A stretch of DNA of 64,000 nucleotides, from positions 1-64,000 of the forward strand of contig NZ_JARGNB010000001.1 of NCBI RefSeq assembly GCF_030167915.1, read 5' to 3'. Within the stretch, counting starts at the first letter, position 1, and every line of letters starts with the position of its first letter. The notes below the pieces were generated by a model, which worked only from the letters and a program-made list of their open reading frames with translations, was not told the DNA's origin and searched no databases. This document shows positions 33,807 through 37,317 of the stretch, in pieces. Both the position numbers and the translations under genes were made by a program. Origin of the DNA: Aquabacterium humicola (GTDB lineage: Bacteria; Pseudomonadota; Gammaproteobacteria; Burkholderiales; Burkholderiaceae_C).

Positions 33807-34001
33807 TCAGTCGCCGTCGCGGTAGCTGCGCCAGCGGTCGATCGCCATGCGCATCGTGCGCGCCTGGTCGCGAAAGCGCGAGCAGGCGGCGCAGGCGCGC
33901 CAGTGGATCTGCAGCGAGAGCTTCTCCAGGCCGTTCAGCGTCCGCTCCTCCGATTCGAGGACCAGTCGCGTCACTTCCTTGCAGGTTCGGCGCAGTTTCA
34001 T
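33807..34001 (-). CDS. zf-HC2 anti-sigma factor (ZAS-type)
   Basis: A 64-residue soluble protein with the H...C-x2-C zinc-binding motif (IHWRACAACSRF) of zf-HC2 anti-sigma domains, and an earlier Cys at residue 7. No membrane segment is present, so it senses in the cytoplasm. It lies 82 bases downstream of the ECF sigma gene with a dispersed repeat between. Thiol or metal binding could release the sigma factor; this is inferred from the family. Confidence 0.78.
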   Translation of the reverse strand: MKLRRTCKEVTRLVLESEERTLNGLEKLSLQIHWRACAACSRFRDQARTMRMAIDRWRSYRDGD

Positions 34002-34006
34002 GTCAG

Positions 34007-34077
34007 TGCCGCCCGGCCGCCCGAAGGCCCTGACGGCCCCCTCGGGGGGCAGCGAACGAAGTGAGCGTGGGGGTCAT
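34007..34077. repeat. dispersed GC-rich intergenic repeat, short form (copy E)
   Basis: On the minus strand it reads GACCCCCACGCTCACTTCG then TTCGCTGCCCCCCGAGGGGG, matching copy D. It separates the ECF sigma gene from its anti-sigma gene and could form a hairpin that lowers anti-sigma expression relative to sigma. Confidence 0.7.
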
Positions 34078-34083
34078 GTTGCT

Positions 34084-34653
34084 TCAGCTCTTTGCGGGCC
34101 GGGCGCGCTCGTCGAACCAGCGCTGTTGCAGGCAGTCCCGCAGCCGCAAGCGGGCGCGGTGCAGCAGGACCCACAGGTTCGTCGCCGTGATCTGCAGTTC
34201 CTTACAGATCTCGTCGCTGTCCAGCTCCAGCCACTCGCGCATCATGAAGACGCGGCCCTGCGTCGGCGGCAGCTGCTCGATGCAGATCTCCATCACCTGC
34301 AGGAACTGGTGCTGGCCGCATTGCTGTTCCGGGTTGCCCCAGTCGGCGGGCTTGTCGCGCCAGTGGCCGGTCTCGTCGAAGAGCGCTTCGTCGAGGTCTT
34401 CGCCGTCATCGGTGCTGAGGATCGTCGCCTCCCGCGTGTGGCGCCGCAGCTGGTCGACCACCTTGTGCTTGAGCACGCCGATCAGCCAGGTCTTCAGCTG
34501 CGACTGGCCGGCAAAGGCCTGCGGCTTCTCCAGCGCCGCCAGCAGGGTCTCGGACACCGCATCCTCGGCCCAGGCATCGTTGCGCAGCTGCGTGCGCGCA
34601 AAGCGCATCAGCTGCGGCCGCAGGGTCTCGACCTGGCGCGCGAAATCGGTCAC
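34084..34653 (-). CDS. ECF sigma factor
   Basis: A 189-residue group IV sigma factor. Region 2 is at about residues 8-75 (RFARTQLRNDAWAEDAVSETLLAAL, LKTWLIGVLKHKVVDQLRR) and region 4 at about 125-180 (LPPTQGRVFMMREWLELDSDEICKEL, TNLWVLLHRARLRLR). It is followed by its zf-HC2 partner and is divergent from the bufferin genes, which it probably activates. Sigma factors of this type next to DUF2282-DUF692 operons respond to copper or other metal stress in known cases. Confidence 0.9.
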   Translation of the reverse strand: MTDFARQVETLRPQLMRFARTQLRNDAWAEDAVSETLLAALEKPQAFAGQSQLKTWLIGVLKHKVVDQLRRHTREATILSTDDGEDLDEALFDETGHWRDKPADWGNPEQQCGQHQFLQVMEICIEQLPPTQGRVFMMREWLELDSDEICKELQITATNLWVLLHRARLRLRDCLQQRWFDERARPAKS

Positions 34654-34756
34654 GGCGGGTTCAGTGGGATTGAAACGGAGGGCAGTGTAAGGAATCCTCG
34701 GGGGCAGGCGACGGACTCTGCGTCGCCCGCTGCATCGTGCAGCCGAGGCGATCGAA

Positions 34757-34782
34757 TGTCAGCCTGATCGCGTGTTGTCGTC
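34757..34782 (+). promoter_or_regulatory. candidate ECF-type promoter of the bufferin operon
   Basis: TGTCAGC at 34757-34763 and CGTC at 34779-34782 are 15 bases apart, resembling -35 and -10 elements of ECF promoters (TGTCA...CGTC type). Transcription would start about 20 bases before the bufA ATG, leaving room for the AAGGAG ribosome site. This is pattern matching only. Confidence 0.35.
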
Positions 34783-34810
34783 CCCTCCCTCATCACTCAA
34801 GGAGTTCCTC

Positions 34811-35086
34811 ATGAACCAACGTCTGATTCTCTCGTCCGCGCTCGCCTCCGCCCTCGCGCTGGGCCTCGTCGGCCAGGTCGCCGCGCAGGCGAAGGAAAAG
34901 GAAAAATGCTACGGCATCGCCAAGGCCGGCCAGAACGACTGCGCCAACCTGTCGGGCTCGCATTCGTGCGCCGGCCAGTCCAAGGCCGACATGTCCGCCG
35001 ACGAATGGAAGTACGTCGCCAAGGGCACCTGCAAGGACATGAAGGGCCTCACCGAAGCCGAAGCCAAGGCCGCGGCGAAGAAGTAA
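34811..35086 (+). CDS. bufA: bufferin-type precursor peptide (DUF2282)
   Basis: A 91-residue precursor with a Sec signal peptide (hydrophobic residues 6-24, cleavage about VAA-Q). The core carries four cysteines, C33 ([10 protein letters not shown]), C44 (QNDCAN), C53 ([11 protein letters not shown]) and C74 (KGTCKDM). These are the DUF2282 signatures. Bufferins are ribosomal peptides whose cysteines are oxidatively modified by a DUF692 enzyme and that then bind copper in the periplasm. AAGGAG lies eight bases before the ATG at 34811. The enzyme and partner genes follow directly. Confidence 0.9.
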
Positions 35087-35111
35087 GCCGCTCGGCGCCG
35101 TCCTGCAACCG

Positions 35112-36005
35112 ATGTCTTCTCCGATGAGCACCCCGAGCCCGATCGCCGGCATCGGCTGGCGCCAGCCGCACTATGCCGAGCTGATGCGGCGCCGGCCGGC
35201 GCTGGCCTTCGTCGAGGTGCACTCGGAGAACTTCTTCGGCGACGGCGGCGCCGCGCTGGCGGTGCTGGACGAAGGCCGGGCGGCCTATCCGGTGAGCCTG
35301 CACGGCGTCGGCCTGTCGCTGGGATCGGCGGCCGGGCTCGATCCGTGGCACCTGGACCGGCTGGCGCGGCTGGTCAAGCGCATCGATCCGGTGCGCGTCA
35401 GCGACCACGCCAGCTTCGCCCGCGCACCGCGCGCGCCCGGCCAGCCGGTGCTGCATGCCAACGACCTGCTGCCCGCGGCCTTCACGCCGGCCTCGCTGGC
35501 GATCATGGCGGCCAACGTGCAGCGCGTGCAGGACCGGCTGCAGCGGCCGATCCTGGTCGAGAACCTCAGCGCCTACCTGCGCTGGGCCGACGACAGCCTC
35601 GCCGAGGCCGATTTCTTCAACCGTCTGGCGCGCCGCACCGGCTGCGGCCTGCTGCTGGACGTCAACAACCTGGTGGTCAACGCGCTCAACGCCGGCACCG
35701 ACCCGTTGCGCACGACCTCCGAGGTCATCGATGCGCTCGACGCCGGCATCGTCGGCGAGATCCACCTCGCCGGCCATGCCGAGCTCGGCGACATCGTCAT
35801 CGACGACCACGGCAGCCGGGTCGACGCGGTCACCTGGGCCGCCTATCGCCACGCGATCGCGCGTTTCGGCGCCGTGCCGACGCTGATCGAGTGGGACACC
35901 GACCTGCCGGCGCTGGACGTGCTGCTGGACGAAGCGGCGACGGCGGAACGATGCGCGGCCGCGGCCCTGCAGCGCCGCGAGCAGGCGGAGCTGGTGCCGG
36001 CATGA
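35112..36005 (+). CDS. bufB: MNIO-family (DUF692) multinuclear iron oxidase
   Basis: A 297-residue TIM-barrel enzyme that installs oxidative modifications on cysteines of the precursor. Metal-ligand regions of the MNIO family are intact: EVHSENFF (35-42), [10 protein letters not shown] (62-71), VSDHASF (96-102), HANDLLP (115-121), LVENLS (148-153), LLDVNN, EIHLAGH and IEWDTDLP. It starts 25 bases after bufA; a second ATG 12 bases later is possible. It overlaps bufC by four bases (ATGA). Confidence 0.93.
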
Positions 36006-36841
36006 AGTGCAGCGACGATTCCGCCTGCGCCGACGCGTTGGGGCACGAGGCGCTGCGCCAGCAGCTGCTGTTGCGGGCGCTGTGGCGCGAGGCGCCGGAG
36101 GCGGCGCTGGGCGGCTGGCTGCGCGATACGCCCACGCGCCAGCAGCGTGCACTGGCGGCCTACCGGGTGAACGGCGAAGCCCTGGCCGCGCGCGCGCTGG
36201 CCGCCGCCTTCCCGACGGTCGAGCAGCTCGTCGGCAGCGAGGCCTTCGCCGGCCTGGCCGCCGCGCACTGGCGCGTGCAGCCGCCCACTTCAGGCGATAT
36301 GGCGACCTACGGCGCGTCGCTGGCCGCGTTCATCGATCGCGATGCGCAGCTCGCCGACCTGCCTTACCTCGGTGATGTCGCCCGGCTGGACTGGGCGGTG
36401 CACCGCATCGAATCCGCCGCCGACGTGCACCAGCCGCCGGAAGGCCTGGAGCGCCTGGGCACAGACGACCCCGTCGAGCTGGCGATGCTGCTGCGGCCGG
36501 GCATCGTGCTGCTGGGCTCGCGCTGGCCGGTGGCGACGATCTGGCATGCGCATCGCCAGGCCGACGCCGACCGCTTCGCGCCGGTGCGCGAGGCGCTGGC
36601 CACCGGCACCGGCGAGCAGGTCCTGGTCTGGCGTGAAGGCTGGCGGCCGCGCGTGCTGGCGCTGGCCGAGGCCGACGCCCGCTTCACCGCGGCGCTGCTC
36701 GCGGCCCGGCCCCTCGGGGCCGCGCTGGACGCGGCCGGCGCCGGTTTCGATTTTGAACCCTGGTTGCTGCAGGCCCTGCAGCACGGCTGGCTGGCGGCGC
36801 TGCTGCCGTGCCCGCACCACTCCGGAGACGACGAACGATGA
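36002..36841 (+). CDS. bufC: DUF2063 bufferin partner protein
   Basis: A 279-residue protein of the DUF2063 family (signature [29 protein letters not shown], here around residues 55-80, and [16 protein letters not shown]). DUF2063 proteins bind the precursor and present it to the DUF692 enzyme. The start codon overlaps the bufB stop and its own stop overlaps the DoxX gene, so the four genes form one unit. Confidence 0.9.
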
Positions 36842-37317
36842 ATCCGAGCTCGACACTGCGCGCGCTGGCCGCACCGGCCCAGCGCATCACCCAGGTGCTC
36901 GAAGCGCTGCAGCCGCTGGCGCTGCTGGCCGCGCGGCTCTACGTCGCCAAGGTGTTCTTCTATTCGGGGCTGACCAAGCTGCGCGACTGGGATACCACGC
37001 TGGCGTTGTTCATGGACGAGTACCACGTGCCGCTGCTGCCGCCGATGCTCGCCGCGCTGCTCGGCACGGCCGCTGAAGTTCTGCTGCCGGTGCTGCTGGC
37101 CGTGGGTCTGGCGACGCGTTTCGGGGCCTTCGGGCTGTTCTTCGTCAACGCCGTCGCGGTGATCGCGCTGCCGGAGATCACCGACGCCGCGCTGCAGCAG
37201 CACCTGTTCTGGGGCAGCCTGCTGGTCGGGCTGGTGCTGTGGGGGCCGGGGCGGTGGTCAGCCGACCATTGGCTGGTGCAGCGGTGGTGCGGCGGGGCCG
37301 CTGCGGCCCCGCGTTAG
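36838..37317 (+). CDS. DoxX-family membrane protein
   Basis: A 159-residue protein with four predicted membrane helices and the DoxX motif LYVAKVFFYSGLTKLRDWDTT. The ATG at 36838 overlaps the bufC stop by four bases. DoxX proteins commonly end bufferin operons; a role in redox handling at the membrane is proposed but not shown by sequence. Confidence 0.88.
   Translation: MNPSSTLRALAAPAQRITQVLEALQPLALLAARLYVAKVFFYSGLTKLRDWDTTLALFMDEYHVPLLPPMLAALLGTAAEVLLPVLLAVGLATRFGAFGLFFVNAVAVIALPEITDAALQQHLFWGSLLVGLVLWGPGRWSADHWLVQRWCGGAAAAPR

Follow-up and report, generated by a model that had tools for sequence, protein, structure and literature searches.

A Buf1 bufferin operon of Aquabacterium humicola and its divergent sigma/anti-sigma pair as likely parts of a shared regulon with Buf2 and msrP

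Six genes at positions 33807-37317 of the window, the 64,000 nucleotides of Aquabacterium humicola DNA analysed here (NZ_JARGNB010000001.1, positions 1-64,000; assembly GCF_030167915.1, genome size 7.39 Mb), form a bufferin locus. Four plus-strand genes (bufA, bufB, bufC and doxX) make up an operon for a Buf1 bufferin, and two minus-strand genes encode an extracytoplasmic function (ECF) sigma factor and a presumed anti-sigma factor of the zinc-associated anti-sigma (ZAS) type (Table 1). Comparison with related genomes makes it likely that this Buf1 operon is controlled by a shared sigma factor, which would also drive a Buf2 bufferin operon elsewhere in the genome and msrP, the gene for a periplasmic methionine sulfoxide reductase. 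The cluster itself is of a known kind; its wiring is a new and testable prediction.

A sequence-only reading of this DNA had described a complete bufferin operon, facing away from genes for an ECF sigma factor and a soluble anti-sigma factor of zinc type, and the family scores confirmed this. The six genes lie where that reading placed them, the precursor has the four cysteines it gave, and the DUF2282, DUF692 and DUF2063 profiles matched at 88, 304 and 52 bits. ATGA overlaps couple the last three operon genes, as it had claimed (bufB/bufC at 36002-36005, bufC/doxX at 36838-36841); bufA has no overlap.

The sigma factor was scanned against genome contigs, and the best 80 of 393 confirmed stretches, mostly labelled Burkholderiales, were kept with up to 5 kb on either side (shorter on short contigs). 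Judged on the sigma factor, the closest named relative among the kept loci is Aquabacterium terrae (91% identity). The anti-sigma gene adjoins the sigma gene in 80/80 loci, a bufA match is present in 60/80 and the full set of bufA, bufB, bufC and doxX in 52/80. Because the pair is constant and all four operon genes accompany it so often, the arrangement is not due to chance. The same reading had called the pair the operon's own, which did not hold: 20 of the 80 pairs have no buf gene match within the stretch covered, one genome (G007) carries the sigma factor without any DUF2282 match, and the promoter motif described below occurs in trans at msrP and Buf2 genes. These observations suggest that the sigma/anti-sigma pair, rather than serving one bufferin operon privately, probably switches a small regulon consisting of two bufferin classes and methionine repair.

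The DNA between the sigma gene and bufA was compared in 57 gaps, namely the window's own and 56 short gaps from the 60 bufA loci; the other four loci (L070, L071, L089 and L094) were left out because their gaps are long. The window's gap contains GTAAGG-N16-CGAC. The sequence GTGTAAGG, or the same ending in T (strict form GTGTAAGK), was found in 55/57 gaps, each time followed by CGAC, against a mean of 0.005/57 in shuffled sequences. The spacing from motif to CGAC is 15 or 16 bases in 54 gaps, while L079 has CGAC at 11 bases and again at 16. The two gaps lacking the strict form have GTGTAATT and GTGTAAGC instead, and the relaxed form GTAA(G/T)-N16/17-CGAC is present in 57/57. These data support a conserved, predicted ECF-type promoter in front of bufA, which the sigma factor would recognise. 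In 200 genomes of the family, the strict motif gave 32 matches in 31 genomes, compared with 5 for a reversed control, and 28 of the 30 matches that were fetched lie between a sigma gene and bufA. The strict motif was rejected as a control element of the sigma gene, since GTGTAAGK was found in the sigma direction in 0/57 gaps.

A separate set, 30 of the 39 matches to the short motif GTAAGG-N15/16-CGAC in A. humicola and four other members of the genus, led beyond the operon. Four, in four genomes, stand 24-35 bases before an msrP-like gene, one precedes msrA, and Buf2 precursors follow some of the others; L172 alone could not be assigned a position. Family identity was checked once for each: MsrP at 476 bits and BufA2 at 89.5 bits (cut-off 60) in the A. 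humicola genome, and MsrA at 193 bits in genome G018. The msrP gene is present in 176/200 genomes, and we examined 110 of its upstream regions (L200-L309), taken in listing order, with the genomes grouped by whether their best sigma match was at least 62% identical, below 62%, or missing at E 1e-40. GTAAG-N16/17-CGAC was found upstream of msrP in 30/31, 15/23 and 11/56 genomes of these classes, respectively, and the form requiring GTAAGG in 18/31, 2/23 and 6/56. The reversed motif was found in 0/110 regions, and shuffles predict 0.055 occurrences in the 31 regions of the first class. With one vote per genus and class, the motif was present in 20/21 cases with a close sigma factor versus 10/44 with none (Fisher p 1.8e-8), and in 15/22 of the class below 62%; this test used 109 rows (L204 was lost), and kinship was corrected by collapsing genera only. 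A similar pattern was seen at Buf2 precursors unlinked to the sigma gene (30 of the 41 matches over cut-off), where the relaxed motif precedes 19/20, 3/6 and 2/4 genes in the three classes. Because G007 keeps both the sigma factor and the msrP motif without a DUF2282 match, msrP may well be the core target, to which the bufferins were joined.

In the A. humicola genome itself, promoters of this kind are predicted before bufA in the window, before bufA2 at C1:2211274 and before msrP at C41:83185. The MNIO (DUF692) loci at C1:1315643 and C12:1006718, in two regions of this genome (G000) that carry further DUF2282 and MNIO genes (L013, C1:1310000-1321000; L012, C12:994000-1012000), have no such promoter in front, so that two of its four MNIO loci would belong to the regulon. 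The motif also occurs at a LysR/short-chain dehydrogenase gene pair (G000:C1:2269748-2269775, minus strand; L032:4038; L088:3951), and in A. humicola it overlaps the predicted gene start there; in some relatives a LysR gene, or LysR with a short-chain dehydrogenase gene, adjoins the sigma gene. In three loci, a gene for an AhpC/TSA- or thioredoxin-like protein lies between the ECF motif and bufA (L089:4432-4956, L094:4368-4919 and L128:956-1546, all minus strand; the family was checked in L089 only), and this protein is possibly a thiol partner of the bufferin.

The sequence-only reading had labelled the anti-sigma protein zf-HC2. The protein falls short of this Pfam family (14.1 bits, gathering cut-off 22.2) but exceeds, with 53.1 bits, the cut-off of 50 for the NCBIfam anti-sigma family NF052368. 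It is 64 residues long, its highest 19-residue hydropathy mean is 0.31, and Pfam gave no match to DUF1109, the NrsF type, at E up to 10. The predicted structure has three helices (pLDDT, the predicted local distance difference test, 91); no significant match to it by fold or sequence was found in PDB, where 7usx and 4kmc score weakly. The presumed zinc ligands C7-H33-C37-C40, together with Gln46, do not vary in 81/81 aligned anti-sigma proteins, the window's included, and a Cys followed by His-x3-Cys-x2-Cys at the spacing of the Neisseria protein MseR is present in all 81. We infer that this protein inhibits the adjacent sigma factor. Since so small a soluble protein has no room for another sensor part, the zinc site is the likely sensor, and sensing of metal or redox state is plausible.

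We propose the following model. BufB, together with its partner BufC, would modify the secreted four-cysteine peptide while it is still in the cytoplasm; after export to the periplasm, the bufferin would hold copper or similar soft metals there. DoxX may have a supporting role. At rest, the ZAS protein would keep the divergently encoded sigma factor bound. Thiol-directed stress, whether from Cu(I) or Au(I) or from oxidants like hypochlorous acid (HOCl), would disturb the Cys3His zinc site and release the sigma factor, which would activate transcription at GTAAGG-N15/16-CGAC before bufA and also drive the unlinked Buf2 operon and msrP. The regulon would thereby couple metal buffering with periplasmic repair of oxidised methionines. 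A joint switch of this kind would be sensible because bufferin lowers free copper and MsrP mends methionines harmed by copper and oxidants.

The peptide and its enzymes agree with the Buf1 class. The N-terminus of BufA resembles a signal peptide by eye, and 60/61 precursors of the set have four cysteines, the remaining one having five. Want of a His-rich tail had been taken to mean that metal preference might differ; such a tail as a mark of another preference was ruled out, as 0/61 precursors have two or more His past the last Cys. BufB scores 308 against NCBIfam BufB (NF050167), just below the cut-off of 310, and its residues 12-224 match the solved structure 3bww (E 4e-33). For BufC, no protein related in sequence was found in PDB at E up to 1. 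BufB, BufC and DoxX exceed the cut-offs of PF05114, PF09836 and PF07681, respectively; DoxX is under that for NF050144 (62 bits, cut-off 80). Bufferins carry Cys-derived thiooxazoles and bind copper (PMC12452194, PMC12668002), and in Buf1 peptides, for which a Cupriavidus metallidurans protein serves as an example, the central cysteines carry the modification and a disulphide joins the first to the last (PMC12452194). By analogy, the present peptide would be expected to show mass shifts at Cys44 and Cys53 rather than at each of its four cysteines.

Four described systems resemble this locus, and in one of them, the gigPABT operon of C. metallidurans, we take GigA to be a DUF692 protein. When set out in one form, the promoters of Caulobacter, Brucella and Neisseria and the one predicted here each join GTAA or GTMAG to a CG lying a similar distance away. 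As in A. humicola, the four-gene gig operon is divergent from genes for an ECF sigma factor (rpoQ) and an anti-sigma factor (rsqA), and it encodes GigA together with a small four-cysteine protein that is exported, a DUF2063 protein and one related to DoxX; RsqA, however, is predicted to be membrane-bound, unlike the soluble protein found here (PMC10304878). The anti-sigma factor resembles MseR of Neisseria meningitidis, a ZAS protein whose ligands C4-H30-C34-C37 are spaced exactly as those of the window's protein (PMC2893595). The Neisseria sigmaE controls its own rpoE operon, NMB2140-2145, and msrA/msrB, where msrP is the target predicted here, and its promoter, GTMAGBWTT-N12/13-CGTCTAAH, has a similar spacing but CGTC in place of CGAC in the -10 element (PMC2893595). 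That operon also includes DoxX and, through gonococcal NGO1945, DUF2063, but it is a single polycistronic unit, whereas the sigma gene and the buf operon are divergent here. The gonococcal precursor is of the EGKCG type, unlike Buf1 (PMC12668002).

In Caulobacter, sigF-nrsF and CC3254-3257 comprise a Buf1 operon with a sigma factor, and this sigmaF drives two DUF2282/DUF692/DUF2063 operons and YedY (MsrP) from GTAACC-N16-CGAA promoters, which end differently from the CGAC found here (PMC3511200). Its anti-sigma factor NrsF has six membrane helices (DUF1109), in contrast to the soluble 64-residue protein of A. humicola; C. metallidurans also has an NrsF orthologue (PMC3511200). The ECF16 SigF/NrsF promoter GTAAC-N16/17-CGAA was not found before bufA, where GTAAGG-N15/16-CGAC has a similar layout alone. 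In Brucella, the ECF16 system bcrS-abcS/bcrXQP drives msrQP and a sacrificial peptide from a TGTAAC..GCGAAA promoter; it differs from the present system in its NrsF-type anti-sigma factor, in having a Met-rich peptide in place of bufferin and in being induced by HOCl (PMC8315932). The accessible part of a survey of MNIO enzymes names NrsF alone as the anti-sigma factor in Buf1 clusters (PMC12452194), whereas the one found here is of the ZAS type. No paper combining bufferin with MsrP or methionine sulfoxide reductase was among the matches listed in the open-access literature, and no open-access paper was found that combines an anti-sigma factor, zinc, methionine sulfoxide reductase, an ECF factor and betaproteobacteria. 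The link between bufferins and methionine sulfoxide reductases is nevertheless implicit already in the Caulobacter and Neisseria papers.

Several observations weigh against a shared regulon of this kind. The msrP motif is present in 11/56 genomes without the sigma factor, and 8/23 genomes with a distant one lack it. Genome-wide counts of short motif forms were not above those of the reversed control (2 vs 7, 9 vs 16 and 39 vs 185, the last for GTAAGG-N15/16-CGAC across five members of the genus, A. humicola among them); enrichment by count was therefore dropped as evidence, and the case rests on the position of the motif, not on its number. When rpoQ was deleted in C. metallidurans, gig expression under metal rose, an effect ascribed by the authors to compensation (PMC10304878). 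The rpoE and msrA/msrB transcripts of Neisseria did not change with H2O2, diamide or singlet oxygen (PMC2893595).

The same regulon may instead have reactive chlorine or another oxidant as its real signal and purpose, with copper buffering secondary. We regard this as a possibility to be taken seriously, though a doubtful one. It would agree with the prediction of msrP as a target in most genomes that carry the sigma factor, even where no bufferin operon is linked, and with the response of the Brucella regulon to HOCl (PMC8315932). On the other hand, copper and gold induce gig (PMC10304878), copper also induces E. coli msrPQ through CusSR, where MsrPQ keeps the copper chaperone CusF reduced (PMC9302797), and the Neisseria sigmaE failed to respond to the oxidants applied, HOCl not being named among them.

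That the pair is after all a private regulator of this bufferin operon, with the msrP and bufA2 motifs read by another sigma factor of the same promoter preference, appears unlikely. The tight divergent linkage, with the whole divergon kept in 52/80 loci, would fit this, as would the sigma-less genomes with an msrP motif, in which another factor may read it; the pairs without any buf gene in the stretch covered, the msrP motif of G007 and the association of the msrP and bufA2 motifs with the sigma factor all argue against it.

The divergon has one further feature. AGT directly precedes GTAAG in 57/57 divergons but in only 1/55 msrP and 2/24 bufA2 promoters, and on the opposite strand TACACT lies at most 80 bases from the sigma start in 57/57 (32-40 bases in at least 35). 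The likeliest reading is that TACACT serves the sigma gene as a housekeeping -10 element and that some of its bases also belong to the ECF -35 element of bufA. In the 22 loci without an adjoining buf operon, TANACT was found upstream in 12. Hexamers resembling a -35 element were only a little above shuffles (2.86 vs 2.26 matches of 6). Very improbable, in our view, is that the conserved DNA is mainly this housekeeping promoter and that a copper regulator with sigma-70 induces the buf operon: AGTGTA in every divergon, TANACT at loci without the operon, the small surplus of -35-like hexamers and the failure of the rpoQ deletion to lower gig would suit it, but GTAAG-N16/17-CGAC precedes msrP and bufA2 mostly without AGT, and we know of no sigma-70 element in which CGAC is recognised. 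Within the shared regulon, we tentatively suggest, at somewhat less than even confidence, that a minimal zinc switch of 64 residues runs a single periplasmic response to copper and oxidation, made up of both bufferin classes and MsrP, and that this response limits itself, polymerase at bufA blocking sigma synthesis through the overlap.

Table 1. Predicted features of the bufferin locus in the window.
Feature	Position	Strand	Support
Soluble anti-sigma factor of the ZAS type, 64 aa, with C7-H33-C37-C40 as presumed zinc ligands	33807..34001	-	NF052368 53.1 bits
ECF sigma factor, 189 aa, GTG start	34084..34653	-	PRK12520 294.7 bits; TIGR02943 237.6 bits
TACACT, a possible -10 element for transcription of the sigma gene, overlapping the bufA -35	34684..34689	-	inferred
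Predicted buf promoter of ECF type, GTGTAAGG (-35) - N16 - CGAC (-10)	34685..34712	+	
bufA, DUF2282 (Buf1) precursor, 91 aa, Cys33/44/53/74	34811..35086	+	PF10048 88 bits
bufB, MNIO (DUF692) enzyme	35112..36005	+	PF05114 304 bits
bufC, DUF2063 partner protein	36002..36841	+	PF09836 52.1 bits
doxX, DoxX-family membrane protein	36838..37317	+	PF07681 63 bits

Two other features of the window were noted. Beside the anti-sigma gene, at 28383-33778 (plus strand), lie a long open reading frame resembling a hydantoinase/oxoprolinase by eye and a pyroglutamyl peptidase gene (PF01470), and similar neighbours occur in L017, L018 and L026, which are loci without buf genes. At 45518-45618 (plus strand), Rfam gave a match to the Vibrio RNA AS9 (51.7 bits); since the opposite strand is what we take to be RibB coding sequence, this match is probably conserved coding DNA.

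Bufferins have so far been studied chiefly as copper peptides. If the shared regulon proposed here is real, many Burkholderiales would make bufferins and methionine sulfoxide repair under one switch, as the work on Caulobacter, with a different anti-sigma factor, and on Neisseria, with a like one, implies for those lineages. The small ZAS protein would then offer a simple means of searching for the signal of the Neisseria-type system, and soft-metal buffering and methionine repair would be one recurring response.

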